Notes: generated from the letters alone by a model not told the origin. Shown: positions 7,233 to 47,609, numbered from the stretch's first letter. The stretch: 61,584 bases of DNA from a virus (IMGVR_UViG_3300025759_000098:1-61584); one strand, 5' to 3'. Numbers and translations are program-made.

Positions 7233-7625
7233 ATGAGTATATTAGGTAAAATATTTTCAGGTGGAGCTACTGAATTAGTAAAAGGTGTAGGTGGTGTTAT
7301 AGATACTCTACACACTTCTAAAGAAGAAAAGCTTGAAGCTGAAAGAAAAATAAAAGATATGATAATGGGTTACGAAGCTGAGATGCAAAAGCAAGTAACT
7401 GAAAGATGGAAGGTTGATATGCAATCTGATTCTTGGTTATCAAAAAATATAAGACCATTAGTTTTAATATTCTTATGTGTATCAACAGTGTTGTTAATAT
7501 TTATCGATGCTGGTGTTATATCATTTGAAGTTAAAGCTTCATGGGTAGACTTATTACAATTAGTATTAATAACAGTGATCGGTGCTTACTTTGGTGGTAG
7601 ATCACTAGAAAAAGTAAAAAAATAA
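7233..7625 (+). CDS. Holin-like membrane protein (GTA/3TM type)
   Basis: 130 residues. An N-terminal amphipathic stretch (SILGKIFSGGATELVKGVGG) and a charged helix precede WLSKNIRPLVLIFLCVSTVLL, then a second membrane helix (about residues 100-120). The WLS-x-N-x-RP junction before the first membrane helix is characteristic of the GTA-type three-transmembrane holin family. It would sit in the inner membrane and time lysis or deliver the peptidase at 46225 to the wall. The lysis enzyme is 39 kb away in the same strand block. Confidence 0.72.
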   Translation: MSILGKIFSGGATELVKGVGGVIDTLHTSKEEKLEAERKIKDMIMGYEAEMQKQVTERWKVDMQSDSWLSKNIRPLVLIFLCVSTVLLIFIDAGVISFEVKASWVDLLQLVLITVIGAYFGGRSLEKVKK

Positions 7626-30492: not shown

Positions 30493-30502
30493 AATTAAAT
30501 AA

Positions 30503-33500
30503 ATGAGTACAGAGTTTTTATATAGCGGACTGGTTGAAGACAATCTTACCGATAGATCTTTTGAAGATTTTAAAAATCATTATTCTAATGAAGGTAATCA
30601 AAAATATCTTTACAATGGACTTATTGGAGATGGTAGTTTTAAAGGTAGTTTTCAAGACTTTAAAAATAAATATTTTCCTGGCACGGTAAGTACTCAGCCA
30701 CAAACAACAACTTCATCACGTAAAAAATCAACTAAAACAAAACAACCAGAACAACCAGAACAACAAGAACCTACTTTTGTAAATGAAGATTTTTGGAAAA
30801 CACAAAAGTACGCTAGAGAAGACTACATACGTAAAGATGGTAAATGGTACTACAAAAATCCAAAAAGCGGTAAAGAAGTAGAAATATCTAAAATATCACC
30901 AAATCAAAAGCAAGCAAACTCTGGAACTATACAACGTTACGAGGAACTTGAAAAAGAACGTAAAGCAGAGCTTGAATATAAAAAATCTAAATTAGAATTA
31001 GAGCAAGAGGTATTAAGTGGAAAAGAAAACAAAACAGAAGAAGATATACAAAAACAATTAGAGCTTGAAAATCAATTAAATTCATTAGATCAACAATCTA
31101 CTTCGGATGAAAACAAAAAGCTTTTAGAAAACAAAAAGCTAGGTAGTATAAAAATGCGTGAAGTAACAAAAGATATTACCGAACTAGATGACGAAGACTC
31201 AATAGCTTTGTTAAACAAACAGTACGCTGAATACGGTTTTACTTTTAGAGTTGATGAAGATTTTGAAGATAAAGTACTTGTAACTTCTATATACAATGAA
31301 AATGGAGAGTTAAAGCAAACGCAAGAGTACTTTACTTTTGACCAAGGGTTTTTCATGGATGATGACGAGGCTAATAGTGCAGAAGCAAAACGTATGGATA
31401 ATTGGATGCGTAGCCGTGCTGTTAAAGGTACAAGTGCAAAAACGTTGCAAAGCACCTTTGCTGAAGATAAAACAGATGAACAAAGAAAAGAAGAGGGTAG
31501 TAATAGCATAAGTAAAAATATTAGAGACGATGAAACTACGAAGTATATAAATAACAATAGAAGTAACATACCTTTTAAACTTAGTGATTTTGACAAAGAT
31601 AATTTACCAGAAGGTCTTGAAAAAATAGTAAATGATTATTGGGATGGTGATATAGATGCTTTGCTAGAATATATGTATGGTCATAAGTATACCTCTACAA
31701 TAGTAGAAGGTAAGAGTAGTATGCCTGTTAAAGATAGAAGTGATAAATACTTAAAAGGTTCTAAACAAGAACAAGTGCAATATTTTGGAGGTGGAACTAT
31801 GATAAATTACGATGGATTTAATAAAGACACTTCAAGAAAAAAAGATATAGAACAAGGTATATTAAACTATGCTATATCTCAATGGCAAAAAGAAAATCCA
31901 GGCGTTGAGTTTGATCAAAAAAACCCAGAGCATTACGGAAGTGTAAAAGAAATTCAAAGTGTAGCCGAGCAAGAATGGCAGAATTTATCTAAACCTGAGA
32001 ACGAAGAGGTTATGCTTGAAAGTGACATTTATAAAAATATTATAGAAACATCAGCAGCAACCATTAAGGCTAGTGATATACGGAAAAATATTAAGGATTA
32101 TGTTGAGGATCAAGATGGTAATGCGTTTTCTAGAGGTGTTTCTCAATTAATGTCTGGTGAGGCAGCTACAAAAGAGTTTGACGCGTTACAAGAAAAATCT
32201 AAAAAATTATTAAACGAAAAATCCGCTATTGAAGAGTCTATAACTGTTTCTGACACAAAATTAAAAGAAACATTAAAGTGGTTTGAGAACAACGATATAA
32301 AAGCTCAAATAGAAGAAATACGTAATAAAAAATATACTACACAACAAGAAGTTGACGCGGCTCAAGATAAAATAGAGACATTACAAAATACTTATAATTC
32401 AAAAATCAAAGATTATAACGATGCGAAGTTTGAAATGGAGCAATCTGTTATAGCTGCTAAAACTTTACAAAGAGAGTTTGTTGATGTTATAGAAGACAGA
32501 GAGGATTTTGAGGAAATATCTAAGTATCTTAATCAAAATTATCAATGGGGTACTATGACGGTAGAAGCGCTTGGTGATGCTGGTGCTGATTTACTTCAAT
32601 CTTTAGGTACTGCCGTAGAAGTTGTTGCCAACCTACCTGGTCTTGTTAATAGAGAGTTTGCTAGAACTTTACTAGATTATGGCGCGGCAAATCCTGACTC
32701 TGCTATAGGTGGTTTTATAAACTCACCAACCGTTACAAGTGGTTTACGAGGTGTTGAAAAAGTAGGTGACGCGATGACAAATAGTAGATTTGACGATGAT
32801 CCTACTACTAGATCTTTACCACAAAAACTCCACGATGCTATTGATAAGTTTCAAGAGTCTAATATAATGAACGTTGCTGATCCAACTGCTTTTGGTGATA
32901 TAGATGGGTGGGGAGATTTTGGTAAATGGACATCTACTATGTTGGCTAGTCAAGCTCCACAGCTTGCTATGATTATAGCTAGTGGTGGTTCTTCTGCATT
33001 AACTCAATCTGCTTTATTAACTGCTAGCGCTGCGGGCTCAAAGTTTTCTGGTATGGAAGAACAAAGAGACTTATACCTTCAGACTGGAGGTTTATATGGA
33101 AAAGATTATAGCTTTGGTAACATGATACTTAGTAGTACTGCAGTTGGTTTGGCTGAAGCCTTATCTGAAAGAGTAACAATAGGACAGCTTAAAAATGTTT
33201 CAAAAGCATTAAAAAGATCTAACTTAGAGCTAATTGAAGCAGGAGCTAAAGGTGTTAAAAGAGGTTTTAATAAAGAGTTTATAGGAGGTTATACTAAACA
33301 CATGATGAACACTGTGTTTAATCCTAAATTAATGCTTGCCGCCGGGTACGATAGACTTCAAGAGGGTGTATCTGAATCTTTAGCTACTATGTCTGAAAAT
33401 TTAGTAGATATATTCAACGGTGAAGATGTTAGTATATTTGACAACGTTGATCAAGCTTTCGTAAGTGGAACTATAATGTCTCAAGCTATTAATACTCCAG

Positions 33501-36500
33501 TAGTGTTTAATCACATGGCCGCTCCTTTTAGATCAGTTAATACTCAAAGTATACTAGATAGAAACACAGCGCGTATGGACCAGTTGTTACAAGAGATACA
33601 TTTATACAACAATAACCCAGCTAAAGAACAAGAGCTTATTAACGAATACAAAGACTTGAAAGAAGAGTCTATGAGAGTCATGGAGCTGGATGTTAAGAGA
33701 GTTGATGCTATGACTGAGTTTGAAAAAGGTAAACTTATAGAAGTACATAAAAACACAAATAGATTAAAAAAAGAAGTTAATGATTTACAAAAGAAACTTG
33801 ACAGCGGCGAAATAACGCAAGAGCAAGCTAACCAACAGTACAAAGATTTAGAAAACCAATTTAAACGTATCGATAGTCAAAAGCAACAAATATTAGACAA
33901 GTATGATGTAAACTTTATAAATACTACTTATGAAAAAACCATGAATAGTATGAGGCAAAGAGCTAAAGAAATAAGCGATGCTTCTGGCGCTAGTATAAAT
34001 ATAAACATCCAAGAAGGTAACGATGGAACTTTTACGCAGTGGCAAATAGAAAACGGAGGTTATACAGTTACTGAAAGTGATGCTAACGGAAACCCGACTA
34101 GAATTATAATGAAAGAAAATACTAGAAAGGGTAAAATTAAAGAGTTTAAAAACCAATTAAACGATCCTAATTTAACAAACAAAGAAAGATCTGCAATTGA
34201 AAGTAATTTAAAAGTTTTAGAAAGTGGTGTTGACGTAGGTATGGATATAAACCAGTACAACCAAATAATGAACGACTCAAGTAATTATGGTTCGTTTGTT
34301 CCTAAGTACGATAACGATGGGAATTACATAGGTCAAGAAATATTTATAAATAAAAATGCCGCTCACGATGGTGGAGAGTTTTCTATAGCTGCTCACGAGT
34401 TCATGCATGGTATGTTGTACTCTACGTTAAAAGGAGATATGAGAACTCAAAACGCTTTAACTAATACTATTTTAAATACATTAGAACAAAAAGGTGTTAA
34501 GGTACCAGAAGGTGTTATGAACAAAATAAATTCATACGCACAAGACGGCACAAGAGGAGAGGAGATAATGACAGTTTTATCACAAGCTATTAGTGATGGT
34601 GATATTAAGCTACCTAAGACTGCTTTAGGAGGGTTTAAAAACTTTTTCCGTAGATATGGTTATAATCATCAAGGAGCTGCTATAGAGTTTGATACAGATC
34701 AAGACATAATAAACTTCTTAAAAGATTATACTTACTCTATGAAAAACAACAAGCAGAACAAAGCTTTAACAAACATGTTTATTCATGGTGCTTCTGGTAA
34801 GCTTATAGAGAAACAACAACGTTATAGAGACCTAAGAAAAAAGTATAGAGAAAATGCAGCCGAAAGAAACAATCAAGCTATGTTTTCTAAAAACGTAGAA
34901 CAAGTAATAAAAAGCCAACCTGACTTAATGTCAGAGATAGACTCTCTTGTTAAGAACGCAGACGGCACACCAAAATATAAAACTCAAAATGAATTTATAA
35001 ATTCTATAGATGGTGGTGAAGCTTATAATTTAATAACAAATACTAAAAAGCTAGATGGTTTAATTCAAGCTGGTATTATGGCACAGGGCATAAATACGCC
35101 TCAAGCTATAGGTGAGTTTACTAGAAACGTAAAAGATAAACTAGGTGAGAGATTATTAAAGAACTTTGACCCAGCTAAAAACGATAGTTTGTTTGGTTGG
35201 TTAACTGGTGTCTCAGGTGGTGCTGGGCAATCAATTATTTACAGAGCAAAAGGTGATGTAATGGTTGATTATAAAAAACAATTACAAACTACTTCTGCTG
35301 ACGTAGGTGTAAGAACTGATACCGGCGAAACAATAGGTACTCAGTTTGAAGCAGATGTAGATACTGATGTACAAGCTTTTGAAAATGAAATTATAATACC
35401 AGGTTCTAATGTTAGAGTTGATAAAAATCAAACTGATGTAGTATTTTTAGAAAGTGTAAATGCAAAAGTTACTAAAACAAAAATAGATAATATAGTACAA
35501 GACTCTGGTATAAACTTAAAAGGACTTACATACAACGGTACAAAGAAAATGCTAGTACAGCATGATGGTGGTAAACCAAAGTCAAAGCGTAAACCTACTG
35601 GTCCTTTATATGGCGCTCTTCAATCAACTAGTAATTTGTTCGGTGTTGACCCATTACGTATAATAAAAGAACAAGATTTAACAGCCACGCAAAGAGAACT
35701 TGCTAGAGATTTTATAAAAGAAAATACACAACAGTTAATAGATATGTTACCTGAAGGAGAAAACAGAAGTGGTGATGCGACAGGTGTTGCTAATACTGTT
35801 TTAAAAGAATTTTACGTTGAAGGCGAAAGAATATCAATGGCTGAAAGTGGTAGTGCTAAGGGTAAAAAGAGACAAACAAAAAGAGACAACATAACGACAC
35901 AAGAGTTTATAGAGTTTTTTAATAAGCCAGGTACAAAATCAGATGGAGCAATAAGAGCTTTAATAGTGCAATCGGCAACAATAGCTTCTAATCAGGCAAT
36001 AAGACAAAATGCTATAGAAAAATCTACTGATCCATTTAGTGACATAGCACTAGTTGGAGATGGTAAGTCTGCTGTTATGTTTAGTAAAAGAAATAATATA
36101 CCTAATTTAAAAAATGCTGATAAAATACCTAACTACAAAAGATTAGGCGCTTTTGATGCAAGACTAAACGAACAAAAAAGAAATATATTTTGGAACAGAG
36201 TAGAACAATTAGCTGGTACCATATCTGCTAACAACGCTGTTCCACTTAGAAACAAACAAGGTGATATTGTTAATGAAGATTTATCTAGACGATCTATAAA
36301 AGAAATGGTAACTGATGTTTATAGAGACGTATTTACACAGTCGGAAATAAATGAATTAGCTGATAGTATTTATGATGTTGTTTCTTCTAAGTCCTTAAAA
36401 TACAGCGTTGAGATTGAAGGTAAAATTAAAAACAGAACACCCAAGCTTAACAAGGATGGAAGTTATAGTGTGGAACAGCAAGGTGCTATAGTAGAAGCTC

Positions 36501-39500
36501 TGTATACATCCAAGCAAGACGCTAACACCAAAATATCTAGCTTTGTAGGAGCAGGAGTAACTACGGCAAGTTTAGGTAATGATACAGATTTAATGAACGT
36601 GTCTAGAGCTAGAATCAAAACCTATATTGATACTAGAGTAGATGAAATTAAAAAAGAATATGCTGGACAAGGTGACGCTGTTATTGGTGGGCAGATAATA
36701 AAAATGTTATCAGAACAAATGGACCAGCACGTTACGGCTGGTAAAGTTTGGGATGGTAGACAACAATTGTTTGCTGCTACGCCTGACTTTGTTTTAAACG
36801 TAGCTTCTAAAATACCAGGTTTAAACTTTGCTATCAAGGTTGCTAAAGATGGTAAAACTGAAATAGATATTAAAACAGCAACTTATGACTCTAATAGTAA
36901 TATAACTAGAAGTTTTGATAATTTATTATCTACAGATACTAGAAGTAAAAGATCAGAAAAATTAAGTCAAAAAGATGTTAGCAAAAGAAAAAGCTCTGTA
37001 TTTACAAAGCTTGATCCTAATTTACCAGGCACAGCTATACAACAACAAAGATTTAAAAATTATCCTCAGTCAGGACCAAGTTTAATAGCAGATTTTATTT
37101 TTGATAAAAACAAAGTTTTAGAAAGAAAACAAGACGCTTTAAATGCACAGTTAGAATTAAACAATTTTGTTAGGTTTGTAGCTAAAGAATACAAAGAAGG
37201 TAGGATGTCGGAAAGAGAATTACAGGTTCACATGGCTACGTTGCTTTCTAATATGAAACCTACTTTAGCAAGAGCAGCTATGCCTAAGTATATAGCTAAA
37301 AGCTTATTGCCTGATGGTTATCAAGAAATGACCAAAAAAGAAATACAAGATTATTTGAAAAACACAGGCGCCGTGTACGAACACATGCAACCTAGAGTTG
37401 GTATGATTATACATTTGTTTAACCAACATATAAATGGCAACGGTGTAACAGACGTGCAGGTTCCTGATTTCTTTTCAAGGTATAACATAGCTATTATACC
37501 TGAAGCTATGGATAAAAAAGCTATAAATGCAGTTGGATTAAGAGAATCTTTAGCCACAGGACAAACAATGACTATGCCAGAGTGGATGAGATACTATAAC
37601 GTTGATACAGAGCAGAAGATGGAACATCTAGATAGTTTAATAGATATTGACACTGGAGTAGAATTAGAGCCTACTGCTCACATAAGTAAAACTAAAGAAA
37701 TATTAAATACTCAACGTAGTGAATCTATAATGTTTAGCAAAGCTGTTAACAATGCTAATGCTATAAACGAAAATACGCCATCAAGAGGTGCTTCTGTATT
37801 TGACTTTGATGAAACATTAATTGATAAAGGTGAAAACATTATTGTTGCTACTAACCCAGAGACAGGTGACAAAGTAGAAATAAGTAGTGGACAATGGCCT
37901 ATACAAGGACCTAAGTATGCGGAGCAAGGTTATAGTTTTGATTTTAGTGATTTTACATTTGTTAAAGGTGGTGTTGAGGGGCCGTTATTACAGAAACTTA
38001 GAAATAGAATAAAAAAGTTTGGACCTGAAAACAACTACGTTTTAACAGCTAGACCAGCTGATGCAGCTCCGCACATACACGAATGGTTAAAGTCAAAAGA
38101 TATAAACATACCATTAGAAAATATTACAGGATTAGGTAACAGTACTGGTGAGGCTAAAGCTTTATGGATGGCTCAAAAGTATTCTGAGGGTTATAATGAC
38201 ATGTATTTTGTAGACGATGCTATGCCTAATGTTGACGCTGTTAAAGACATAATGGATCAGCTAGATATTAAAGGTAAATCTGTTCAAGCTAAAATTAAAT
38301 TTAGTAAAAGAATTAAATCTGAGTTTAGTAACATAATAAATAAAGCTGCGCAACAAGAAATGGATCTTGATTTTAATAGAATCTTAGAACAAACTAAAGG
38401 CGTAAAGGCTGAGTCTAGATTTTCTGATGCACAAGCAAAAGTTAGAGGTAGTAAAAAAGGTAAGTACGCTTTCTTTGTTCCACCATCAGCCGAAGATTTT
38501 AAAGGTTTAATATATAGATTTTTATCTAAGGGTAAAGTTGGTGAACAACAAATGGCTTTCTTTAAAAAGGCTCTGTTTGATCCTTTTGGTAGAGCAACAA
38601 CTTCTATTGATATTCAAAAACAAAAAATACAAAACGAGTATAGACAATTATTAAAACAGTTTCCTGATGTAAAGGCAGATTTAAACGAGGTTATATACAA
38701 CAACTTTACGTTGGGACAAATGATAAGAGTTTACAATTGGAACAAGGCTGGTTTTGAAATACCTGGTTTATCACAAAGAGATTTAAACAATATAGTAAAA
38801 GAAATGGAAGCAGACGCAGAGGCTTTAGCCTTTGCTAATTCACTAGGTATAATAACAAATCAAAACGATGGTTATATAGAACCTGGAGAGTTTTGGTTAG
38901 TAGAAAACATACAAAGTGATTTAAACAAAATTACAAACGAGATAAACAGAGATTTACATCTACAGGAGTTTAAACAAAATAGAGAAAAAATATTTGGCGA
39001 GTGGCAAGGTGATAGACTTGTTGGTCCTAATATGAATAAAATAGAAGCTATATATGGTTCTAATTTTAGAGAGGCTCTTGAAGATATATTGTACCGTATG
39101 GAGTATGGTACTAAAAGAAACAAAGGTAACAATAGACTTGTAAACGCTTTTAACAATTGGGCTAACCAATCAGTTGGTGCAATCATGTTCTTTAACATGA
39201 GGTCAGCTTTACTACAAACTATATCTTCTGTTAACTATTTAAACTGGTCAGACAATAATCCTTTAAAAGCTGGTTTAGCATTAGCTAACTTCCCACAGTT
39301 TTTAAAAGACTTTTCAATGATATTTAACTCTGATATGTTAAAGCAAAGACGTGCTGGTAACCAAAGGGGTATTAATGAAGCTGAACTTGCTCAAGCTGTA
39401 GGTGGTGTTGGTGTGGCTAACAGAGTTAAAGCTATGTTGAACTGGTTACTAACAAAAGGATTTTTACCTACACAAATAGCAGATAGTTTTGCTATTGCTT

Positions 39501-40666
39501 CTGGTGGTGCTACGTTTTTTAGAAACAGAGTTAACAGTTATGTTAAACAAGGTTATACACAAACCGAGGCTGAAACAAAAGCTTTTCAAGATTTTCAAGA
39601 AGTAACTGAGGAGTCACAACAGTCTTCAAGACCTGATATGATTTCACAACAACAAGCTTCACCGCTAGGTAGATATATACTAGCTTTTAAAAATACACCT
39701 ATGCAGTATGCTAGATTAATGAAGAGAGCTTATTTAGATTTAGTAAACGGTAGAGGTGATTACAAAACAAACGTTGGTAAAATTATATATTATGGTGGTA
39801 TACAAAACTTAATATTTAACGGGCTACAAGCAGCGCTAGGTGCTCTTATTGGAGATGATGAAGAAGAAGATAAGAAAACAAATGAACATGTTAGAATTGC
39901 AAATTCAATGGTTGATTCTATTCTTGGTGGTTTAGGTTTTGGAGGTAATGCTGTTATGACTATTAAGAATACTATACTAGAATATAACAAACAAAATAAT
40001 AAAAAGTGGAACTCTGACCATACATATACAATACTTAAGTTAGTAGGTTTTTCTCCTACTGTTGGTAGTAAGTTAAGAAAAGTATACTCAAGTATACAAA
40101 CTGAAAAGTTTAACAAAGATGTTATTAAAGAAATGAGTATGTTGGATATAGATAATCCTAGATGGTCTGCTATAGCAAATCTTGTTTCTGGTATAACTAA
40201 TATACCATTAGACAGGTTGGTTAAAAAAATGGACAACATAGATGCTGCTCTTACTGAAGACATATCTAATATGGAAAGATTTGCTTTGTTAATGGGTTGG
40301 AATACTTGGGATTTAGGTATTGAAGATCAAGATATAATAGCTGTTGAAAACGAAATAAAAGAAAAGAAACAGATAGAGAAAAAAGAAAAAAGAGAAAAAA
40401 AGAAAGAGGAAAACAAAAGAAAAAAAGAAGAAGAAGATAAAGTAAAAGAAGAAGAAAATAAAAAGAAAAAAGACGGTGTTTGTATCGCTATAAGTAAGAA
40501 AGGAACTAGATGTAGAAACAAAGCAGAGTCAGGAGGATACTGTACTGTACATGCTAAAGTAGAGCAAGGCACGAAACAAGTTCAATGTAGTAAGATTAAG
40601 TCTGATGGTGAGAGATGCAAAATGAAAACTAAGGCTAAAAGTGGTTTGTGTTATTATCACGATTAA
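30503..40666 (+). CDS. Giant multidomain virion (polyvalent-type) protein
   Basis: 3387 residues, the largest product here. In order: two N-terminal LY-x-GL repeats (about 6-30 and 36-61); a Lys/Gln/Pro linker; coiled coil (150-210); an Ala/Gly-rich hydrophobic segment (about 806-895); an HEFMH zinc-peptidase motif (1298-1302); unknown domains; a HAD phosphatase-like domain with DFDET (2434-2438), T2515 and DD at 2571-2572; a conserved helical region; a Lys/Glu-rich linker; and two C-terminal Cys/His zinc-knuckle-like repeats (C3327, C3337, C3347, H3350; C3362, C3372, C3383, H3386). FSK motifs at 1460-1463, 1859-1862, 2410-2413 and 2599-2602 mark domain edges. Probably ejected into the cell to act early (inference from polyvalent proteins). 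Confidence 0.82.
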   Translation: MSTEFLYSGLVEDNLTDRSFEDFKNHYSNEGNQKYLYNGLIGDGSFKGSFQDFKNKYFPGTVSTQPQTTTSSRKKSTKTKQPEQPEQQEPTFVNEDFWKTQKYAREDYIRKDGKWYYKNPKSGKEVEISKISPNQKQANSGTIQRYEELEKERKAELEYKKSKLELEQEVLSGKENKTEEDIQKQLELENQLNSLDQQSTSDENKKLLENKKLGSIKMREVTKDITELDDEDSIALLNKQYAEYGFTFRVDEDFEDKVLVTSIYNENGELKQTQEYFTFDQGFFMDDDEANSAEAKRMDNWMRSRAVKGTSAKTLQSTFAEDKTDEQRKEEGSNSISKNIRDDETTKYINNNRSNIPFKLSDFDKDNLPEGLEKIVNDYWDGDIDALLEYMYGHKYTSTIVEGKSSMPVKDRSDKYLKGSKQEQVQYFGGGTMINYDGFNKDTSRKKDIEQGILNYAISQWQKENPGVEFDQKNPEHYGSVKEIQSVAEQEWQNLSKPENEEVMLESDIYKNIIETSAATIKASDIRKNIKDYVEDQDGNAFSRGVSQLMSGEAATKEFDALQEKSKKLLNEKSAIEESITVSDTKLKETLKWFENNDIKAQIEEIRNKKYTTQQEVDAAQDKIETLQNTYNSKIKDYNDAKFEMEQSVIAAKTLQREFVDVIEDREDFEEISKYLNQNYQWGTMTVEALGDAGADLLQSLGTAVEVVANLPGLVNREFARTLLDYGAANPDSAIGGFINSPTVTSGLRGVEKVGDAMTNSRFDDDPTTRSLPQKLHDAIDKFQESNIMNVADPTAFGDIDGWGDFGKWTSTMLASQAPQLAMIIASGGSSALTQSALLTASAAGSKFSGMEEQRDLYLQTGGLYGKDYSFGNMILSSTAVGLAEALSERVTIGQLKNVSKALKRSNLELIEAGAKGVKRGFNKEFIGGYTKHMMNTVFNPKLMLAAGYDRLQEGVSESLATMSENLVDIFNGEDVSIFDNVDQAFVSGTIMSQAINTPVVFNHMAAPFRSVNTQSILDRNTARMDQLLQEIHLYNNNPAKEQELINEYKDLKEESMRVMELDVKRVDAMTEFEKGKLIEVHKNTNRLKKEVNDLQKKLDSGEITQEQANQQYKDLENQFKRIDSQKQQILDKYDVNFINTTYEKTMNSMRQRAKEISDASGASININIQEGNDGTFTQWQIENGGYTVTESDANGNPTRIIMKENTRKGKIKEFKNQLNDPNLTNKERSAIESNLKVLESGVDVGMDINQYNQIMNDSSNYGSFVPKYDNDGNYIGQEIFINKNAAHDGGEFSIAAHEFMHGMLYSTLKGDMRTQNALTNTILNTLEQKGVKVPEGVMNKINSYAQDGTRGEEIMTVLSQAISDGDIKLPKTALGGFKNFFRRYGYNHQGAAIEFDTDQDIINFLKDYTYSMKNNKQNKALTNMFIHGASGKLIEKQQRYRDLRKKYRENAAERNNQAMFSKNVEQVIKSQPDLMSEIDSLVKNADGTPKYKTQNEFINSIDGGEAYNLITNTKKLDGLIQAGIMAQGINTPQAIGEFTRNVKDKLGERLLKNFDPAKNDSLFGWLTGVSGGAGQSIIYRAKGDVMVDYKKQLQTTSADVGVRTDTGETIGTQFEADVDTDVQAFENEIIIPGSNVRVDKNQTDVVFLESVNAKVTKTKIDNIVQDSGINLKGLTYNGTKKMLVQHDGGKPKSKRKPTGPLYGALQSTSNLFGVDPLRIIKEQDLTATQRELARDFIKENTQQLIDMLPEGENRSGDATGVANTVLKEFYVEGERISMAESGSAKGKKRQTKRDNITTQEFIEFFNKPGTKSDGAIRALIVQSATIASNQAIRQNAIEKSTDPFSDIALVGDGKSAVMFSKRNNIPNLKNADKIPNYKRLGAFDARLNEQKRNIFWNRVEQLAGTISANNAVPLRNKQGDIVNEDLSRRSIKEMVTDVYRDVFTQSEINELADSIYDVVSSKSLKYSVEIEGKIKNRTPKLNKDGSYSVEQQGAIVEALYTSKQDANTKISSFVGAGVTTASLGNDTDLMNVSRARIKTYIDTRVDEIKKEYAGQGDAVIGGQIIKMLSEQMDQHVTAGKVWDGRQQLFAATPDFVLNVASKIPGLNFAIKVAKDGKTEIDIKTATYDSNSNITRSFDNLLSTDTRSKRSEKLSQKDVSKRKSSVFTKLDPNLPGTAIQQQRFKNYPQSGPSLIADFIFDKNKVLERKQDALNAQLELNNFVRFVAKEYKEGRMSERELQVHMATLLSNMKPTLARAAMPKYIAKSLLPDGYQEMTKKEIQDYLKNTGAVYEHMQPRVGMIIHLFNQHINGNGVTDVQVPDFFSRYNIAIIPEAMDKKAINAVGLRESLATGQTMTMPEWMRYYNVDTEQKMEHLDSLIDIDTGVELEPTAHISKTKEILNTQRSESIMFSKAVNNANAINENTPSRGASVFDFDETLIDKGENIIVATNPETGDKVEISSGQWPIQGPKYAEQGYSFDFSDFTFVKGGVEGPLLQKLRNRIKKFGPENNYVLTARPADAAPHIHEWLKSKDINIPLENITGLGNSTGEAKALWMAQKYSEGYNDMYFVDDAMPNVDAVKDIMDQLDIKGKSVQAKIKFSKRIKSEFSNIINKAAQQEMDLDFNRILEQTKGVKAESRFSDAQAKVRGSKKGKYAFFVPPSAEDFKGLIYRFLSKGKVGEQQMAFFKKALFDPFGRATTSIDIQKQKIQNEYRQLLKQFPDVKADLNEVIYNNFTLGQMIRVYNWNKAGFEIPGLSQRDLNNIVKEMEADAEALAFANSLGIITNQNDGYIEPGEFWLVENIQSDLNKITNEINRDLHLQEFKQNREKIFGEWQGDRLVGPNMNKIEAIYGSNFREALEDILYRMEYGTKRNKGNNRLVNAFNNWANQSVGAIMFFNMRSALLQTISSVNYLNWSDNNPLKAGLALANFPQFLKDFSMIFNSDMLKQRRAGNQRGINEAELAQAVGGVGVANRVKAMLNWLLTKGFLPTQIADSFAIASGGATFFRNRVNSYVKQGYTQTEAETKAFQDFQEVTEESQQSSRPDMISQQQASPLGRYILAFKNTPMQYARLMKRAYLDLVNGRGDYKTNVGKIIYYGGIQNLIFNGLQAALGALIGDDEEEDKKTNEHVRIANSMVDSILGGLGFGGNAVMTIKNTILEYNKQNNKKWNSDHTYTILKLVGFSPTVGSKLRKVYSSIQTEKFNKDVIKEMSMLDIDNPRWSAIANLVSGITNIPLDRLVKKMDNIDAALTEDISNMERFALLMGWNTWDLGIEDQDIIAVENEIKEKKQIEKKEKREKKKEENKRKKEEEDKVKEEENKKKKDGVCIAISKKGTRCRNKAESGGYCTVHAKVEQGTKQVQCSKIKSDGERCKMKTKAKSGLCYYHD

Positions 40667-40714: not shown

Positions 40715-40993
40715 ATGGCAAAAGAATTAAACGAAGATACTAGCTTTCAAATAAGCATTAAGACACTAGGTGGTATAGCTGCTTTAATAGCTACATTAGT
40801 AGGTATGTGGTTTACTTTGCAGGCAGACATTGCTGAAGCAAAAGAGTTACCAGCACCACCAGACCCTGAGGTTACACGTATGGAGTTTGACATGAAGGAT
40901 CAAATGATACGACAAACTATCATGACTACACAGGACGACGTTAAAGAAATTAAAAAGTCTATTGAAAAAATAGAAGAAAAACTTTACGAATAA
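40715..40993 (+). CDS. Membrane-anchored coiled-coil protein
   Basis: 92 residues. IKTLGGIAALIATLVGMWFT (about residues 15-34) is one membrane helix. A Pro-rich spacer (ELPAPPDPEV) precedes a C-terminal coiled coil (MTTQDDVKEIKKSIEKIEEK). This design, inner-membrane anchor with an exposed coil, occurs in i-spanin-like and accessory lysis proteins, but it lacks further evidence for that. It begins the accessory cassette after the giant protein and overlaps the next gene by one base. Confidence 0.68.
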   Translation: MAKELNEDTSFQISIKTLGGIAALIATLVGMWFTLQADIAEAKELPAPPDPEVTRMEFDMKDQMIRQTIMTTQDDVKEIKKSIEKIEEKLYE

Positions 40994-41331
40994 TGAAAAA
41001 AATTATATTAATAGTATTAATGTTTTTATTTGTAAGTGCTAATAGCCAAAACATTTGCAAGACAGATGTATGTGTAGTTGAGTTTAATGCTGGTTGGAAC
41101 AAAGCTAATAGTGTAGACTGGTTAGATAAGTTAAATGATTGTGGAGTTCAAAGAATAAATATAGACGAAGGTGATTGGCAAAAGAAATATAATATAGTTG
41201 TAGTACCTACAATTATAGTTTTCAACGGTGAAGAAGTAAAACGTTATCAAGCAGATCTTAGTTTTACTATGGCTGTAACAAGAAAAGAAGTACAGGAAGA
41301 AGTTGACGAGATATTAATGGAAGATTTTTAA
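40993..41331 (+). CDS. Exported thioredoxin-fold protein lacking active cysteines
   Basis: 112 residues. MKKIILIVLMFLFVSANSQ is a signal peptide (cleavage probably after Ser18 or nearby). VVEFNAGWNKAN aligns with the thioredoxin VEF-x-A-x-WCxxC segment, but both redox cysteines are absent (N36 and N39). VVVPTIIVFNGEEVKR carries the cis-proline (P72) and strands expected of the fold. Two to three other cysteines (C22, C27, C50) remain. It would fold in the periplasm but not act as a normal disulfide reductase; a binding or chaperone role is likelier. Confidence 0.75.
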   Translation: MKKIILIVLMFLFVSANSQNICKTDVCVVEFNAGWNKANSVDWLDKLNDCGVQRINIDEGDWQKKYNIVVVPTIIVFNGEEVKRYQADLSFTMAVTRKEVQEEVDEILMEDF

Positions 41332-41333
41332 TC

Positions 41334-41723
41334 ATGGCTTACAAACAACCAAATAATCCTTTTGTTAAAACACAGTGTGGTAGACGTTACGCTCCTCTTG
41401 CTGTACAAATAAAAGCAAAGTTTAATTCTCCTTTTGCAAAAGCAGATCCACCTAGAACTATAGGTAAAGGTAAAAATTTTAATCCAGTTTCAGAAGACAA
41501 AGGCGCTACAGGCGCGGCAGCTGGAGGAGGTATGAGTCCAAGAGGAGTAGCTGCATACAAACGTAATAACCCAGATAGTAAATTAAAAACAGCAGTAACA
41601 ACCAAACCTTCAAAGTTAAAACCAGGTAGCAAGGCGGCTAAACGTAGAAAATCGTTTTGTGCTAGATCAAAAAGCTGGACTAGTGAAAGAGGTAAAGCAG
41701 CAAGAAGAAGATGGAACTGTTAA
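41334..41723 (+). CDS. Small basic Cys-containing protein
   Basis: 129 residues, strongly basic. The start MAYKQPNNPFVKTQCGRRYA and KFNSPFAKADP (a variant of the SP-x-K module) link it to the tagged family. The C-terminus KRRKSFCARSKSWTSERGKA followed by ARRRWNC is a short conserved motif found in phage and giant virus basic proteins, I believe. Cysteines at the two ends of that motif could bind a metal. Likely nucleic-acid-associated and virion-packaged; function unknown. Confidence 0.75.
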   Translation: MAYKQPNNPFVKTQCGRRYAPLAVQIKAKFNSPFAKADPPRTIGKGKNFNPVSEDKGATGAAAGGGMSPRGVAAYKRNNPDSKLKTAVTTKPSKLKPGSKAAKRRKSFCARSKSWTSERGKAARRRWNC

Positions 41724-41754
41724 GTAATATGTACAACTATATAAAAAATAAGAT

Positions 41755-41925
41755 ATGAGAAACGCACCATTAAAAGCATTTGCATCACCTGTTAAAGGTA
41801 AGAAAGATGCATGCTATCATAAAGTAAAAGCAAGTGCCGATGTGTGGCCTAGTGCTTATGCCTCAGGTAGACTTGTACAGTGTAGAAAAGTTGGCGCTGC
41901 TAACTATGGTAAAAGTAAAAAGTAA
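41755..41925 (+). CDS. 56-residue basic peptide, YKVK-WPSAYAS type
   Basis: 56 residues, starting MRNAPLKAFASPVKGKK and continuing with DACYHKVKASADVWPSAYAS and RLVQCRKVGAANYGKSKK. The KDAC-x-KVK ... WPSAYASG-x-LV-x-CRK-x-GA signature is a short motif I recall from many marine phages and large viruses. It has a SPVK module like the tagged proteins. Start chosen at the only ATG in frame; the stop overlaps the next gene's ATG by one base, which supports a real coding gene. Confidence 0.74.
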   Translation: MRNAPLKAFASPVKGKKDACYHKVKASADVWPSAYASGRLVQCRKVGAANYGKSKK

Positions 41926-42572
41926 TGGCTTACGATATTAAATCTAAGTTTAAAGCTAACAGTCCTCTTCCTTGTTGGAAAGGTTATGAACGTGTACCTG
42001 GTACAAGGCCAGGCGCAAAGGGTAGTTGTCGTAAATCTTCACCTACTAAACATGGTTCACTCGAAGACTTTCAGCGTGGAAGAAACGGTCACAACCCAGA
42101 CACTATGTCAGCAAAGCACGAAGACTTTCATTTGAAACAATCTAAGAGCTCACCTAATAAAACTATGGGTTACGAGGTTAAAATAGAAAAAGGTAAGGTT
42201 GTTAGTGAGAAAGAAAGACCTCACAATAATTTTAAACCAGGTAGAGAAGGTGAAAGTCAACACGAAGCTTATCATAATAGATTTCCAGAAAAACCTTTTA
42301 CAGACGCAGAAGGTAGACCTTTAAAACAACAGAAAGGTGGTGGTACTAAAAAAGTATGTTTACCCAAAGCAAAAGTAAACGCAATGAGTGAGTCTAAAAG
42401 AAAGTCGTTAGCTAGCGCTAAAAGCAAAGCTGGTTCTAAAGGTGAGTACAAAAGACCATCGAGTACTAATGTAAAAGGTGCTCGTAAAAAAGGAGCTACA
42501 CTAAAAGACTGGTTTGAAAAAGAAAACTGGGTACAAGTTGGTAACCCAAGTAAAAAATGTGGAGAAGCATGA
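41925..42572 (+). CDS. Basic protein with PCWKGYER motif and tag-like SP modules
   Basis: 215 residues, Lys/Ser/Gly-rich. Near the start SKFKANSPLPCWKGYERVPG carries a conserved PCWKGYE-x-VPGT ... GSCRK unit, followed by SSPTKHGSLEDF (tag-family SP-x-KHG). The C-terminal half has KKVCLPKAKVNAMSESKRKS and KGATLKDWFEKENWVQV, a motif typical of basic phage packaging-type proteins. Four cysteines in two pairs could bind zinc. Function not known, probably virion-associated and DNA-binding. Its stop overlaps the next start as ATGA. Confidence 0.76.
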   Translation: MAYDIKSKFKANSPLPCWKGYERVPGTRPGAKGSCRKSSPTKHGSLEDFQRGRNGHNPDTMSAKHEDFHLKQSKSSPNKTMGYEVKIEKGKVVSEKERPHNNFKPGREGESQHEAYHNRFPEKPFTDAEGRPLKQQKGGGTKKVCLPKAKVNAMSESKRKSLASAKSKAGSKGEYKRPSSTNVKGARKKGATLKDWFEKENWVQVGNPSKKCGEA

Positions 42573-44764
42573 TTAGATTTTTATTACTAGCATTATTACC
42601 AACACTGGTATTTGCACAGAAAGAAGTTGTTATACATATAAAAACAGATGGTTATCCTAGTGAAACTAGATGGATATTATACGACTCTGTTTATCAAGGT
42701 GACACTATAGATTATGTTGACTACGGTCATTATACACAGCCTAACTTTATGCATAGAGATACTTTGTATATTGATAGTATACAAAATATATCGTTTGTTA
42801 TATACGATAGTTATGGTGACGGTATTATAAACGGTGAGTATTATGTTACTATATGTGGTGACACTGTAGTTGATTATCCTGTTAGTACTTTTACTAGTGG
42901 TTTAATACACAATAGAGTTGTACCACAATGTATGCCACAACCACCTCCACCAGGTCAATGCGTGCCAGCTATGGTAAATATAAACTTAGATCAATTTACT
43001 AGTGAAACTAGTTGGGAAATAACAGATACAATGGGTAATTTATTAGCAGCAGGAGGCCCATATCCAAACGCTCCTGATTACCAACCACAACATATTCCAG
43101 TTTGCCTACCTACAGGTGTTTTAAGGTTTACGATATTTGATACGTACGGAGATGGTTTAGCTGGAAGCCAGTGGGGTGGAAACGATGGTTCGTATTATGT
43201 AATGCAATGTGGCGATACCTTGGTGTTTGGTACCACACCTAATTTTGGGACAGACTCCACACATGTATTTACCTCTGATACTTGTACACCACCACCGCCA
43301 GTGCCGGGCTGTATGGACAACAATTATATTGAATTTAATCCAGCAGCCACAGTAAGTGACAGTAGCTGTGCTACTTTAAAAATATATGGTTGTACTGATA
43401 GTACAATGTTTAACTACGACTCAACTGCAAACACTATGGATTACATAGACAGTTGCGATTACACTCTCATACTGCATGATCTTGCGGGTAATGGTTGGGT
43501 TGGTAGTAGATTAGAGATTTATCAAGACGACACATCACAGTTTGTAATGACTTCTGGTTTTAATCAAACTTACACTCTACAATTAAAAGCACCTAAGCTA
43601 GTAAGAGCTAAGTTTTTTATTAATCAACAAGCTTCGCAAACAGCGCCTGAATGTGGGTTTACTTTAATAAATCCTATGGGTGATACTGTTATAAGTGTCA
43701 AGCCTCCATTTATGCAGCCGTTTTTTGTGTATGGTGGCATAACTTATTGTGGTAATGAGTGTATTGAAATAGTTGAGGGCTGTATGGATAACATGGCGTT
43801 TAACTACGATAGTACTGCAAACACACCACTACCTTGTTATTATGTACCCGGTTGTATGTCTCCTGCGTATCTAGAGTATCATATCGATACATCTAACGGG
43901 GTTTATACAGATTTTAATATACAGGATAGCTGTAACACATTAGCTGTGTTTGGATGTACAGATACGGCTTCGTTTAATTACGACTCTACTGCTAACGTAG
44001 ACAATGGTGGTTGTTTACCAGTTATCATAGGTTGTATGGAAAGTCTAGCTTTAAATTATAATCCGCTAGCAAACACACCTGATACGTGTATACCTTATAT
44101 ATACGGATGTACAGACCCGACAATGTTTAACTATGATAGCTTAGCTAATACAGACGACGGTAGTTGTGAGCCGTTTGTTTACGGTTGTATGGACTCAATA
44201 ATGTTTAACTTTAACCCACTTGCTAATGCAAATGATACTTGCGTACCTTATATTTATGGTTGTACTGATCCGAGTATGTACAATTACGAAGCATCGGCAA
44301 ACACAGAGGATTTTAGTTGCGTGCCTTTTATTTATGGGTGTACCGACAGTCTTGCTATTAATTATAATCCTGACGCTAATACAGATAATAATTCTTGTAT
44401 TGAAGTGGTTGTTGGATGTATGGATCAAGATGCGTGGAACTATGAAGAACTAGCAAACGTGCCTGACACTTGTTTATTTTCAGCTGAGTGTATAACTGGA
44501 CCAGGTGAACCATATTGGTTAAATGATCCTTGTTATGCTTGGGTTATAGATGTTGATGAATACTGTTGTACAAACGACTGGGATAGTATATGTCAATTAA
44601 CTTATGATTACTGCGAAGGAACTTGGGTGGGACCAATACCGCAACGTATATCACAGTTAATAATGATAACAGATATATTAGGTAGACCTGCAAGAATAGA
44701 GAAAAACAAACTATTGTTCTTTATATATAAAGACGGAACAGTTGAAAAGAAATTTATAAAATGA
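42569..44764 (+). CDS. Secreted T9SS-like adhesin with cysteine repeats
   Basis: 731 residues from the ATG at 42569, chosen because MIRFLLLALLPTLVFAQ is a clean signal peptide cut after A16 and the start overlaps the previous stop (ATGA). Two SF-x-IYDSYGDG-like units (about 75-90 and 185-205) are followed by eleven cysteine repeats GC[TM]D ... NY ... C, then a YCCTNDWDSICQLTYDYC motif usual in Bacteroidetes exoproteins. The end, TDILGRPARIEKNKLLFFIY then KDGTVEKKFIK, matches the short type IX secretion C-terminal signal. A phage-coded surface adhesin or receptor-masking protein is inferred. Confidence 0.82.
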   Translation: MIRFLLLALLPTLVFAQKEVVIHIKTDGYPSETRWILYDSVYQGDTIDYVDYGHYTQPNFMHRDTLYIDSIQNISFVIYDSYGDGIINGEYYVTICGDTVVDYPVSTFTSGLIHNRVVPQCMPQPPPPGQCVPAMVNINLDQFTSETSWEITDTMGNLLAAGGPYPNAPDYQPQHIPVCLPTGVLRFTIFDTYGDGLAGSQWGGNDGSYYVMQCGDTLVFGTTPNFGTDSTHVFTSDTCTPPPPVPGCMDNNYIEFNPAATVSDSSCATLKIYGCTDSTMFNYDSTANTMDYIDSCDYTLILHDLAGNGWVGSRLEIYQDDTSQFVMTSGFNQTYTLQLKAPKLVRAKFFINQQASQTAPECGFTLINPMGDTVISVKPPFMQPFFVYGGITYCGNECIEIVEGCMDNMAFNYDSTANTPLPCYYVPGCMSPAYLEYHIDTSNGVYTDFNIQDSCNTLAVFGCTDTASFNYDSTANVDNGGCLPVIIGCMESLALNYNPLANTPDTCIPYIYGCTDPTMFNYDSLANTDDGSCEPFVYGCMDSIMFNFNPLANANDTCVPYIYGCTDPSMYNYEASANTEDFSCVPFIYGCTDSLAINYNPDANTDNNSCIEVVVGCMDQDAWNYEELANVPDTCLFSAECITGPGEPYWLNDPCYAWVIDVDEYCCTNDWDSICQLTYDYCEGTWVGPIPQRISQLIMITDILGRPARIEKNKLLFFIYKDGTVEKKFIK
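43307..44473 (+). repeat. Eleven degenerate GC[TM]D...NY...C coding repeats
   Basis: The repeats code for units of about 20-30 residues with a leading GC[TM]D, an inner NY or NF and a closing Cys, separated by short YI/FV linkers. Most diverged copies (for example GCMSPAY...) still keep both cysteines. Several adjacent copies (44090-44400) are very alike, suggesting recent duplication or recombination. This is a protein repeat, not a CRISPR array. Confidence 0.85.
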
Positions 44765-45810
44765 AAAAAGTACTATTAGTTATATTAGTTTTTCTAACGT
44801 CTTGTGTTGCACCTAAAAAATGTTGTGGGCAAGATAATATAAAAAACATATTTAAGTTTTCTACATTTTATGCTGCTGTTAATGGTGGTACTTCTATATC
44901 AGACGTAGAAACTTATAGTGTTACAGATGGTTTAGGTATTGAAACAATACAAACGCCTTATGATTACAACTTAACTTTAGGTATACGTAAAATAGCTAGA
45001 TTTGGTTATGAAAACAGAGCTAATACATTTTATGATGGTACTGAATCTAATTATAGTGATGCTGCTACAATAGGCAAAAGAAATGGTACAGAGTTTTTGT
45101 TTCAAGTAGATTACAAAAGACAAGAAGGTGTAGAGTATTTAGATCAACACCACTTTGTAAGATATGTAGCTGACGACTGGATAGCTAAAGCAGAGTACTT
45201 AGTAGATGGTTTTGCAGATATAGAGTATTTTGAGACGTCACAAAGGTACAGGTGTGATATTGGTAAAATAAGTTTTAATATTGGAGCCGTACAAAGATTA
45301 TCTGAGCCTTATGGTTACGATCCACTTGCTAGCTGGAAGTTAGATAATGGTAATATACACTACACGTATCTAGCTTTACAGGAAGGATATAACGTAGATG
45401 TTTATCATGACATGTATTATAATCCAGATGGCGACGTGGTAGCTTTTTCATCAGATGTATGGGAACAAATTGTAATACCAGAAGTATTAGCTAACTACGT
45501 TGAAAAGAAGCGTAATGAGTTAGATAACAAATTACAACACTCGTTGGTAGTAGGTTTAGATTACTATTATTATAATAAAAGTGTTTGGGTTCATACGTGG
45601 GCTAACTTAATGCCATATCACTACAACGATAAAGATGAGTTTAGTTACCACAACTATATTGATGGTCAATGGTTAGATTACTCAGGCGGCTTGATATTTG
45701 GACAAAAGATAAATAAAAGATTAGGTGTATTTGCGGAAGGTAAATACAATAAGTACTGGAACAGAGAGTGGTACGATTTTAAAATGGGTATTAATTATAT
45801 AATAAGATAA
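44761..45810 (+). CDS. Predicted lipoprotein/outer-membrane beta protein
   Basis: 349 residues. MKKVLLVILVFLTSC is a lipoprotein signal with the lipobox LTSC (lipidated Cys15); CCGQDN follows. The body is dominated by alternating aromatic strands (YNLTLGIRKIARFGYENRAN; LVVGLDYYYYNKSVWVHTWA; LGVFAEGKYNKYWN) and ends WYDFKMGINYIIR, resembling an outer-membrane barrel end. It probably lies in or on the outer membrane of the infected cell. Possible roles are superinfection exclusion or a host surface change; nothing decides between them. Start overlaps the previous stop as ATGA. Confidence 0.73.
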   Translation: MKKVLLVILVFLTSCVAPKKCCGQDNIKNIFKFSTFYAAVNGGTSISDVETYSVTDGLGIETIQTPYDYNLTLGIRKIARFGYENRANTFYDGTESNYSDAATIGKRNGTEFLFQVDYKRQEGVEYLDQHHFVRYVADDWIAKAEYLVDGFADIEYFETSQRYRCDIGKISFNIGAVQRLSEPYGYDPLASWKLDNGNIHYTYLALQEGYNVDVYHDMYYNPDGDVVAFSSDVWEQIVIPEVLANYVEKKRNELDNKLQHSLVVGLDYYYYNKSVWVHTWANLMPYHYNDKDEFSYHNYIDGQWLDYSGGLIFGQKINKRLGVFAEGKYNKYWNREWYDFKMGINYIIR

Positions 45811-45813
45811 ATT

Positions 45814-45909
45814 ATGAAAGGTAGATTTTGTAAATGGTTTCAAGCAATAACGTTTGGATTAGTATGTTTTGGTTGGTGTAAAATGTGTTGTAATAATTGT
45901 GAGTGTTAA
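45814..45909 (+). CDS. 31-residue cysteine-rich micropeptide
   Basis: Encodes 31 residues, MKGRFCKWFQAITFGLVCFG then WCKMCCNNCEC: seven cysteines, six of them in the last 14 residues. The central stretch is hydrophobic and could be a short membrane anchor. The CxxxCxxCC pattern suggests metal binding or disulfides. It fits exactly between genes: 3 nt after the lipoprotein gene, and its TAA shares a base with the next ATG (TAATG). It is short, so it needs expression evidence. Confidence 0.6.
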   Translation: MKGRFCKWFQAITFGLVCFGWCKMCCNNCEC

Positions 45910-46223
45910 TGGCTTTTAAAATGAAAGGATGGAGCCCATTTGCTCAAAAACCAAAGACTAGACAAGGTGATGTTTACGTTGGTGATAAGAAGTTTTCAGA
46001 CAAACCAATGTACGAAGGACAAAAACCGTCTACACATCTAATGGCTTATGGAGAATCTGATGGTAAGTTTGTAGCTTATCCTACTTTGTTTCAAGATGAC
46101 GATGGTACATGGCAGCAACCAGATGATGCTTTTAGAGAAGCTATAAAGAGAAAAGAAATATATCAATTTAACACAGAACAAGAAGCAAAAGAATTTGCTG
46201 ATGGTAGCTGGAAAAATAAATAA
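45909..46223 (+). CDS. FKMKG-tagged protein of the 'YPTLFQ' type
   Basis: 104 residues from the ATG at 45909; an upstream GTG in frame is less likely because the ATG overlaps the preceding TAA. It begins MAFKMKGWSPFAQKPKTRQG, tag plus SP module. A folded domain follows: LMAYGESDGKFVAYPTLFQD, DDAFREAIKRKEIYQFNTEQ and EAKEFADGSWK, a conserved phage domain seen in many virion-associated proteins, I believe. This is the only tagged protein adjacent to the lysis enzyme. Function unknown. Confidence 0.76.
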   Translation: MAFKMKGWSPFAQKPKTRQGDVYVGDKKFSDKPMYEGQKPSTHLMAYGESDGKFVAYPTLFQDDDGTWQQPDDAFREAIKRKEIYQFNTEQEAKEFADGSWKNK

Positions 46224-46224
46224 T

Positions 46225-46719
46225 ATGGAAAGAATAAGTAAACACGTAAGTTGGAAAGAAGGTACATATAGTAGAACAGGTGAAAGATTAAATTTAGACA
46301 ACACTCCTAATGAAGAGCAATTAAAATGCATGAAAGAGGTTGCGGAAAATTTGTTTGAACCATTAAGAGAGTGGGTTGGTGGACCAATAAAAATAAATAG
46401 CTTTTTTAGAGGCGAGCCTGTTAACACTGCTATAGGCGGTGAGAAACGTTCACAACACATGAAGGGTCAAGCTATAGATATGGACGATACCTTTGGTCAT
46501 AAGACAAATGCAGAGATGTATCATTATATAAAAGATAATTTAGATTTTGATCAAATGGTTTGGGAGTTTGGTACTGAATATCCTGACGGTAATCCTAATT
46601 GGGTTCATATTAGCTGGGTATCACATAGGCCTAATAGAAAACAAGAGGTTATTGCTATTAAGAAAAATGGCAGGACTAGATATATAAAAGATATTGAAGA
46701 GTATTTAAAAAACAAATAA
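46225..46719 (+). CDS. M15 peptidase-type endolysin
   Basis: 164 residues from the ATG at 46225. The M15/VanY-type zinc motif is complete: KRSQHMKGQAIDMDD (H78, D85) and NWVHISW (H128), with WEFGTE in between. Such enzymes cleave peptide cross-links of peptidoglycan. No signal peptide is present, so release depends on a holin, probably the 3TM protein at 7233. The N-terminus MERISKHVSWKEGTYS and the compact length (about 160 residues) match single-domain phage endolysins. Confidence 0.86.
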   Translation: MERISKHVSWKEGTYSRTGERLNLDNTPNEEQLKCMKEVAENLFEPLREWVGGPIKINSFFRGEPVNTAIGGEKRSQHMKGQAIDMDDTFGHKTNAEMYHYIKDNLDFDQMVWEFGTEYPDGNPNWVHISWVSHRPNRKQEVIAIKKNGRTRYIKDIEEYLKNK

Positions 46720-46745: not shown

Positions 46746-47162
46746 ATGGCAACAACGACAGCGACTTTAACGCTAACAAGTACTGACTTGCTGACAGACT
46801 CATTATCGCTGTCGGCTACGTCAACATTGTACAAAGCAGGTACGACAACGGGATTGGACAGTATCCAATACGAAAGATTAGAAGTTCCAACTGGTGATGT
46901 TTATGATATGATAGACGCTACTTCTGCAGGGGCAAACAAAGCTAACAAAATATATATAGCTAACAAAGGTACTGACGCTACTAAATATGTAGATATTTAT
47001 ATAGCTTCTTTAAACATTGGTAGATTATATGCTGGTGACTGGGCTTTCTTTCCACTAGAAGCGGCGGCAGCAACTCAAGATGTGGGTGTAGAAGCTATTG
47101 GTGCTGCACAAGTAGTTGAGTTCGCTTTAATTCACGAAGGTAAAACACTAGTAGCATCATAG
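46746..47162 (+). CDS. Virion decoration/fibre-like protein A
   Basis: 138 residues, Ala/Thr/Ser-rich. MATTTATLTLTSTDLLTDSL opens it and IASLNIGRLYAGDWAFFPLE ends the core. It is a paralogue of the next gene (matching openings and the shared IGRLYxGDW unit). The leader TTAATTAAAAAACAAAATT is almost the same as that of the major capsid gene, suggesting high expression. Probably an abundant beta-sandwich decoration or fibre protein (inference). Confidence 0.74.
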   Translation: MATTTATLTLTSTDLLTDSLSLSATSTLYKAGTTTGLDSIQYERLEVPTGDVYDMIDATSAGANKANKIYIANKGTDATKYVDIYIASLNIGRLYAGDWAFFPLEAAAATQDVGVEAIGAAQVVEFALIHEGKTLVAS

Positions 47163-47189
47163 TATTAATATAAAAAAAAATAAATAAAA

Positions 47190-47609
47190 ATGGCGACAAC
47201 AACAGCACAAATAACATTAACTAGTACAGACATAGCTGATAACGCATTATCTATTTCTAATACGATGACGCTTACTACAGCAGGAACTGAGACTGGTTTA
47301 ACAGAAACAACTGGATTAGCTAGAAAGAAAGTAGCTAGCGCTAGTTTAGCAGACTTGATTACAGTAGCAAACACAGATGTAACAGCGGCTAAATCAGCTA
47401 AAGTATACATTAAGAACACTAGTACCGCTACAGATAAATATGGGTTAATAGGTATTGGAGATTCAAGTGGAACACCAATTTATATTGGTAGGTTATATGG
47501 AGGTGATTGGATGTTAATTCCATGGGACGCAAACTCTGGAGAAGACATTACGCTTACCATGAGCGATTCTACTGAAACAATTATTGAATACATGGTATTC
47601 TTTGAATAA
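47190..47609 (+). CDS. Virion decoration/fibre-like protein B
   Basis: 139 residues, paralogous to the preceding gene: MATTTAQITLTSTDIADNAL at the start and IYIGRLYGGDWMLIPWDANS near the end. It is the last plus-strand gene, followed at once by a bidirectional-looking terminator. Slightly more acidic at the C-terminus (STETIIEYMVFFE). The pair likely arose by tandem duplication. Structural by composition; partner or location unknown. Confidence 0.74.
   Translation: MATTTAQITLTSTDIADNALSISNTMTLTTAGTETGLTETTGLARKKVASASLADLITVANTDVTAAKSAKVYIKNTSTATDKYGLIGIGDSSGTPIYIGRLYGGDWMLIPWDANSGEDITLTMSDSTETIIEYMVFFE

Follow-up and report, generated by a model that had tools for sequence, protein, structure and literature searches.

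The virus record IMGVR_UViG_3300025759_000098 (61.6 kb; the whole stretch of 61,584 nt is referred to below as the window) has structural genes on the + strand up to 47.6 kb and early genes on the − strand, and includes a GroEL gene. Its terminase is 64% identical to that of the uncultured podovirus MW202828, 45% to those of the Flavobacterium elemo phages and 37-39% to those of Cellulophaga phages. The late genes end in the order TMcc, TRX, three basic proteins, REP, BARREL, a cysteine peptide of 31 amino acids (aa), a 104-aa protein and an M15 endolysin, with tight overlaps of ATGA at 42569 and 44761 and of TAATG at 40993, 41925 and 45909. Within this run TMcc, TRX, REP and BARREL (40715-45810) constitute an obligate four-gene unit, hereafter the module, whose products are predicted from their sequences to be exported or membrane proteins. 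Strongly hydrophobic N-termini are encoded by 6 of the 66 window genes examined, and 40715-46719, with 10 genes, accounts for 4 of these 6 (hypergeometric P ~0.004). This bears out an original prediction, made from the DNA alone, that exported or envelope proteins are clustered here, at 40993-41331 (thioredoxin-like), 42569-44764 (adhesin-like, with a tail of the type IX secretion system (T9SS) type) and 44761-45810. The cysteine micropeptide (31 aa, 45814-45909), wall peptidase (46225-46719) and ATGA overlaps that it listed are all present. Its cassette limits, 40993-46719, need revision, as the cluster exists but the unit begins at 40715 and the products of 41334-42572 and 45909-46223 are not exported.

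Composition and spread of the four-gene module

TMcc (40715..40993, +), the first core gene, encodes a 92-aa protein in which, by hydropathy and sequence, a single N-terminal membrane helix is followed by a charged, coil-like region; the membrane orientation is predicted only. Its stop codon overlaps the TRX start codon (TAATG). TMcc is not our first choice as a holin, given the strong holin match at 7233-7625 and the presence of other holin-like genes in divergent carriers. At loci L053, L058 and L064, an additional 101-114-aa protein with one N-terminal membrane helix sits between TMcc and TRX. The second core gene, TRX (40993..41331, +), encodes 112 aa, with a signal peptide and a thioredoxin fold that has no CxxC. 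A profile built from 59 sequences matches thioredoxins in the PDB (best E value 5e-9), and the AlphaFold2 (AF2) model is small with a thioredoxin-like order of elements, although its structural Z is only ~3. The W-C-x-x-C of thioredoxin is replaced by W/F-N-x-x-N in 59 of the 59 aligned sequences, N36 and N39 being invariant; HMMER alternatively aligns a gap at this site, and both catalytic cysteines are missing either way. TRX thus shares the fold and cis-proline loop of thioredoxin (PF00085), but is a predicted secreted protein and, throughout the 59 sequences, is without the catalytic cysteines.

BARREL (44761..45810, +), the fourth core gene, encodes 349 aa with an export signal and is predicted to form an outer-membrane beta barrel. 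All 78 of the BARREL relatives examined have an export-type, hydrophobic N-terminus, and the conserved export-type N-termini argue against these signal peptides being non-functional. The description of this protein as a lipoprotein fits the signal of the window copy, which has a lipobox, but the lipobox is kept in just 32 of the 69 aligned relatives and the mature part is a predicted barrel. AF2, supplied with these 69 sequences, returned a barrel with a pLDDT (model confidence score) of 75, residues 80-107 being poor, and with VIA-align the model matches 12-strand outer-membrane barrels at Z 12-13.5, with tied scores from which no family stands out. PorV and PorP/SprF, the 14-strand T9SS barrels, are not among the matches listed. 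Assignment of BARREL as a known enzyme or a specific porin was rejected, as these matches are generic and tied and there is no PDB sequence match. Small exported barrel-like proteins of ~137-151 aa, each adjoining a 76-80-aa membrane protein, are also encoded away from the module in G028 (L222, 19168-19881), G025 (L218, 1841-2554) and G018 (L204, 3280-3961).

A first set of loci was seeded by BARREL (105 relatives, 80 kept), and in these TMcc, TRX and REP accompany BARREL while the other genes vary. Since these loci had been chosen by BARREL, the search was repeated from an alignment of TRX, which confirmed at least 533 relatives in IMG/VR, of which the best 80 loci were used. All four genes are present in 49 of the 49 TRX-seeded loci that have at least 3.5 kb of flank on each side, and in all 61 loci that show the four genes, their order is a rotation of TMcc>TRX>REP>BARREL, with BARREL first in 43, TMcc in 12 and REP in 6. 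These loci are mutually related, not independent, and no exception to the four-gene set was found among them. No other exported family recurs near the module in more than 5 of 84 loci. We are highly confident in this four-part anatomy. The variable content expected by the original prediction is therefore seen in the neighbours of the module but not in the four exported genes, which are strictly conserved together.

The terminase of the window was sought in 32 module-bearing records. It is 73-93% identical in 19, one of them the metagenome-assembled genome (MAG) that holds L082, and distant in G005, G021 and G023 (29-30% identity) and in G029 (25%). No related terminase was detectable in G007, G009, G022, G024, G025, G026, G028, G030 and G031, some of these perhaps being fragments. 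A giant virion protein is encoded next to the module at 17 of the 18 loci of the same lineage but is absent from all 21 divergent ones, and BARREL is at least 58% identical across loci. The simplest reading of these sequences is that the module transfers between phage lineages as a block. Searches of 50,697 phage records, from cultured phages or otherwise deposited, matched neither BARREL nor TRX. A cellular origin for BARREL was considered and rejected, as a genome scan for cellular relatives returned three MAG contigs only, of which at least L082 and L083 show the module together with phage neighbours. The carriers are marine phages, of several lineages, of Bacteroidota-type bacteria. Designation of the locus as an accessory cassette holds to the extent that the module is without a match in sequenced cultured relatives and crosses phage lineages, but internally it is an obligate four-gene unit.

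REP and its two C-terminal tails

REP (42569..44764, +), the third core gene, overlaps its neighbours by ATGA at each end and encodes a signal peptide, variable N-terminal domains, ~10 cysteine repeats, a conserved cysteine box and a sorting tail. The N-terminus is strongly hydrophobic in 54 of the 54 REP proteins with a closed 5′ end. Across the family there are several types of N-terminal domain, one with a MAM domain, and 6-22 cysteine repeats, and the C-terminal cysteine box contains all 14 invariant columns. Beyond the last conserved cysteine, 23 of 49 REP proteins have a tail of the form YPNPT...KKIIK. The T9SS type A sorting domain model PF18962 matches these 23 members, several verified over the curated cut-off, and TIGR04183 matches those of the canonical tails that were tested. 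The remaining 26, including the window copy (SQLIMITDILGRPARIEKNKLLFFIYKDGTVEKKFIK, 44651..44764, +), have a short tail of ~37 residues, LIMITDILGRPxxxxKNxLLFFIYxDGTVEKKxIK, with no PF18962 match; no Pfam or NCBIfam model extends over it in the proteins scanned. Near-identical REP bodies can have either tail: L027 and L049, for example, are 96% identical over 632 residues and have wholly different tails.

In cellular Bacteroidota, relatives of the short tail end secreted proteins. In one class, 8 of 198 genomes have matches to a short-tail profile, 17 in all, and a search of one order added two more in another genome. The readable matches sit at the extreme C-terminus, several in signal-peptide proteins, and the proteins concerned are a GH16 glycanase, beta-lactamase-family hydrolases, M43 metallopeptidases, a FISUMP protein and a leucine-rich repeat protein. 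At cellular loci L089, L092, L094, L096, L101 and L105, the short tail ends secreted hydrolases, peptidases and adhesin-like proteins, and genome G199 alone has eight matches. Co-occurrence with the T9SS was discarded as proof of function, SprA being present in 8 of 8 carrier genomes but also in 191 of the 198 overall and so uninformative.

The short tail resembles the T9SS type A sorting domain (PF18962/TIGR04183) in its C-terminal position on signal-peptide proteins and in alternating with it on the same REP body, but differs in its length and in having no YPNP part. Alignment of the two with hhalign scored 14.0, with shuffled controls up to 16.3, and does not demonstrate sequence homology between the tails. 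The short tail shows the pattern of a sorting tail that can stand in for the T9SS domain and be replaced by it, and REP is probably exported through the host T9SS. In G028, a 607-aa signal-peptide protein (L224, 17748-19571) with an Omp28-like start and a sorting-tail-like end is possibly a second phage T9SS cargo.

Passengers, endolysin and other window genes

The basic proteins and the cysteine peptide are variable passengers that lie outside the core. Three very basic, non-exported proteins are encoded at 41334..42572 (+), namely a DUF6321 protein (41334-41723), a phrog_727-like protein (41755-41925) and a third at 41925-42572. This block separates TRX from REP in the window; in its close relatives L002, L003 and L006 it follows BARREL. 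The 31-aa cysteine-rich peptide (45814..45909, +) is found, among BARREL loci, in L003, L006 and L010 only, with too few differences between copies for analysis of selection. The 104-aa protein (45909..46223, +), likewise a passenger, is not exported.

The endolysin (46225..46719, +) is a Peptidase_M15_3 protein (PF08291, E value 6e-11, 42.9 bits versus a cut-off of 23.2). The wall peptidase of the original prediction is thus present, and its family is that of the phrog_894 endolysins (E value 4e-23), but it has no signal peptide and a hydrophobic N-terminus is found in none of 21 relatives. It is a module neighbour within the same phage lineage. The holin (7233..7625, +; phrog_3427, E value 5e-32, with a weak PF11351 match) is far from the module.

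The giant protein (3387 aa, 30503-40666) has repeated CxxxxxC...C..H motifs at its C-terminal end that are perhaps zinc-binding. Two tandem paralogues beginning MATTTA are encoded at 46746-47609, and one to four copies of this family are present near the module in 45 of 84 loci. In the early region, 56643-57035 (−) encodes a 130-aa signal-peptide protein for which Pfam and PHROG searches gave no match.

A proposed role at the host envelope

The conserved export signals, the T9SS sorting domain in 23 of 49 REP proteins and the predicted outer-membrane barrel support the cell-surface location originally proposed for these products, and we infer that proteins are present in every envelope layer of the infected cell. 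The best reading of the module is that it is late and envelope-spanning. In several lineages its neighbours are lysis genes (M15 endolysin, holin-like genes, an endolysin-like family and DUF5675), and divergent carriers likewise have holin-like, endolysin-like or DUF5675 genes nearby. As the holin is distant and the endolysin is without a signal peptide, the phage appears to follow a holin-endolysin pathway, with the outer membrane still to be passed. In six same-lineage carriers (the window, G002, G003, G012, G018 and G027), no late spanin-like protein was found besides the module proteins. A spanin-like transmembrane plus periplasmic protein is, however, encoded near the endolysin in all five module-free relatives (MW202828, 35390-36013; elemoF, 30391-30936; phi38:1 gp084; Gundel_1 gp087; phi46:3 gp091), a difference with a Fisher P of 0.002, or 0.015 with one relative regarded as doubtful, for genomes that are not independent. 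It is this difference that suggests a spanin-like role. In the unrelated carriers G005 and G030 only module proteins pass the hydropathy filter; in carrier G009, two small open reading frames on the opposite strand also pass. An outer-membrane protein could serve as an o-spanin, as noted by Kongari et al. (PMC6139136).

The module resembles two-component spanins of the Rz/Rz1 type in pairing a small protein that is predicted to be in the inner membrane and to have a coil-like region (TMcc) with a predicted outer-membrane partner, and in its position near the endolysin. Here, however, the partner is a 349-aa predicted barrel, lipidated only sometimes (lipobox in 32 of 69), rather than a small lipoprotein, TRX and REP are two further obligate partners, and there is no sequence match to a spanin. 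The spanin-like protein of MW202828, elemoF and phi38:1 is like the module in being encoded near the endolysin and in combining a membrane helix at the N-terminus with a long stretch in the periplasm, but it is one protein rather than four, with no T9SS or thioredoxin part. The C-terminus of that protein resembles a few amphipathic strands, and it is possibly a single protein linking both membranes. The module-free loci L085 (35390-36013), L188 (10392-10937) and L210 (21185-21784) encode proteins of ~180-207 aa with an N-terminal membrane helix near the endolysin. We rate the module as a variant of known envelope-acting phage modules.

Tentatively, and with somewhat less than even confidence, we propose that the module substitutes for a spanin, dealing with the outer membrane as the phage leaves the host. 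TMcc would have its anchor in the inner membrane and extend its coil into the periplasm, where TRX would be a redox-dead adaptor, and BARREL would be located in the outer membrane. REP would exit by Sec and the host T9SS and remain at the surface, perhaps docked to BARREL, the four proteins together forming an envelope-spanning complex late in infection. Once the endolysin had cut the wall, a TMcc-TRX-BARREL bridge would help to open the outer membrane and REP would act on, or coat, the cell surface during exit. Several observations weigh against this. The G025/G028 lineage has, in addition to the module, another protein with a membrane helix and a coil (176-186 aa), REP is adhesin-like with no obvious role in lysis, and conservation of BARREL at 59% identity or above is unusual for lysis genes. 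The spanin comparison involves few and related genomes, with three of the five module-free ones read in part, and the topologies are based on hydropathy, including the predicted orientation of TMcc.

The main and serious rival, although we consider it somewhat doubtful, is surface exclusion or display, exclusion having also been suggested by the original prediction. Late in infection, BARREL and T9SS-exported REP would cover the cell or take up sites at its surface or on the T9SS, blocking adsorption of other phages or of debris-bound progeny, with TMcc and TRX building or anchoring the coat. A mosaic adhesin-like REP, with variable N-terminal domains, 6-22 repeats and a surface-sorting tail, is in keeping with this, as is absence of the module from relatives, expected for an accessory function. 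Exclusion leaves unexplained, however, the strict four-part conservation, which includes a type II membrane protein and TRX, and also the recurrent position near lysis genes and the carriers without spanin-like genes. The lysis-gene neighbourhood and the spanin-like genes of module-free relatives fit an outer-membrane step in lysis at least as well as they fit exclusion.

It is unlikely that REP and BARREL change how the infected cell attaches, aggregates or takes up nutrients, in an auxiliary metabolic or dispersal role. The structural matches to BARREL do include the substrate porins Tsx, KdgM and NanC, and REP, which in one case has a MAM domain, is similar to secreted adhesins, but the barrels matched are of generic type, with their Z scores tied, and cellular BARREL relatives were not found beyond the three MAG contigs. 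Location of the four proteins in the virion, for example as fibre or internal proteins, rather than in the envelope of the infected cell, is very improbable. The genes are at the end of the structural operon and similar cysteine repeats occur in a cyanophage S-CAM3 gene annotated as encoding a virion structural protein, but the export-type N-termini are conserved though the signal type varies, 23 of 49 REP proteins have a known secretion domain at the C-terminus and the BARREL model is that of an outer-membrane barrel.

We found the four-gene set described nowhere in the open-access literature searched, in which the single relevant precedent for phage T9SS cargo is the 'Cryophage' (Bellas et al. 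2020, PMC7468147). As there, phage proteins have T9SS type A sorting domains and presumably use the host system. By its published description, the 'Cryophage' cargo, termed a unique occurrence, comprises variable enzymes together with a PA14 protein, all from one phage, whereas the cargo here is a cysteine-repeat protein encoded within the same four genes in many phages, and in half of these its tail is the short one that known models miss. The module extends that single report to a widespread fixed set, its TRX gene alone having at least 533 IMG/VR relatives. The alternating tails on near-identical bodies point to a short Bacteroidota C-terminal sorting signal outside the searched domain libraries, which would alter secretome predictions. 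Our most speculative proposal, which we regard as possible but doubtful, is of a new exit machine for phages of T9SS-bearing Bacteroidota, in which a coil-thioredoxin-barrel bridge replaces spanins and works with a host-T9SS-exported adhesin whose uncatalogued short sorting tail is shared with cellular secreted proteins. A published list of phage genomes without recognisable spanins has 91 entries, including flavobacterial Croceibacter phages (PMC6139136). The module, conserved in several marine phage lineages, is a concrete candidate for the means by which such phages open the outer membrane.

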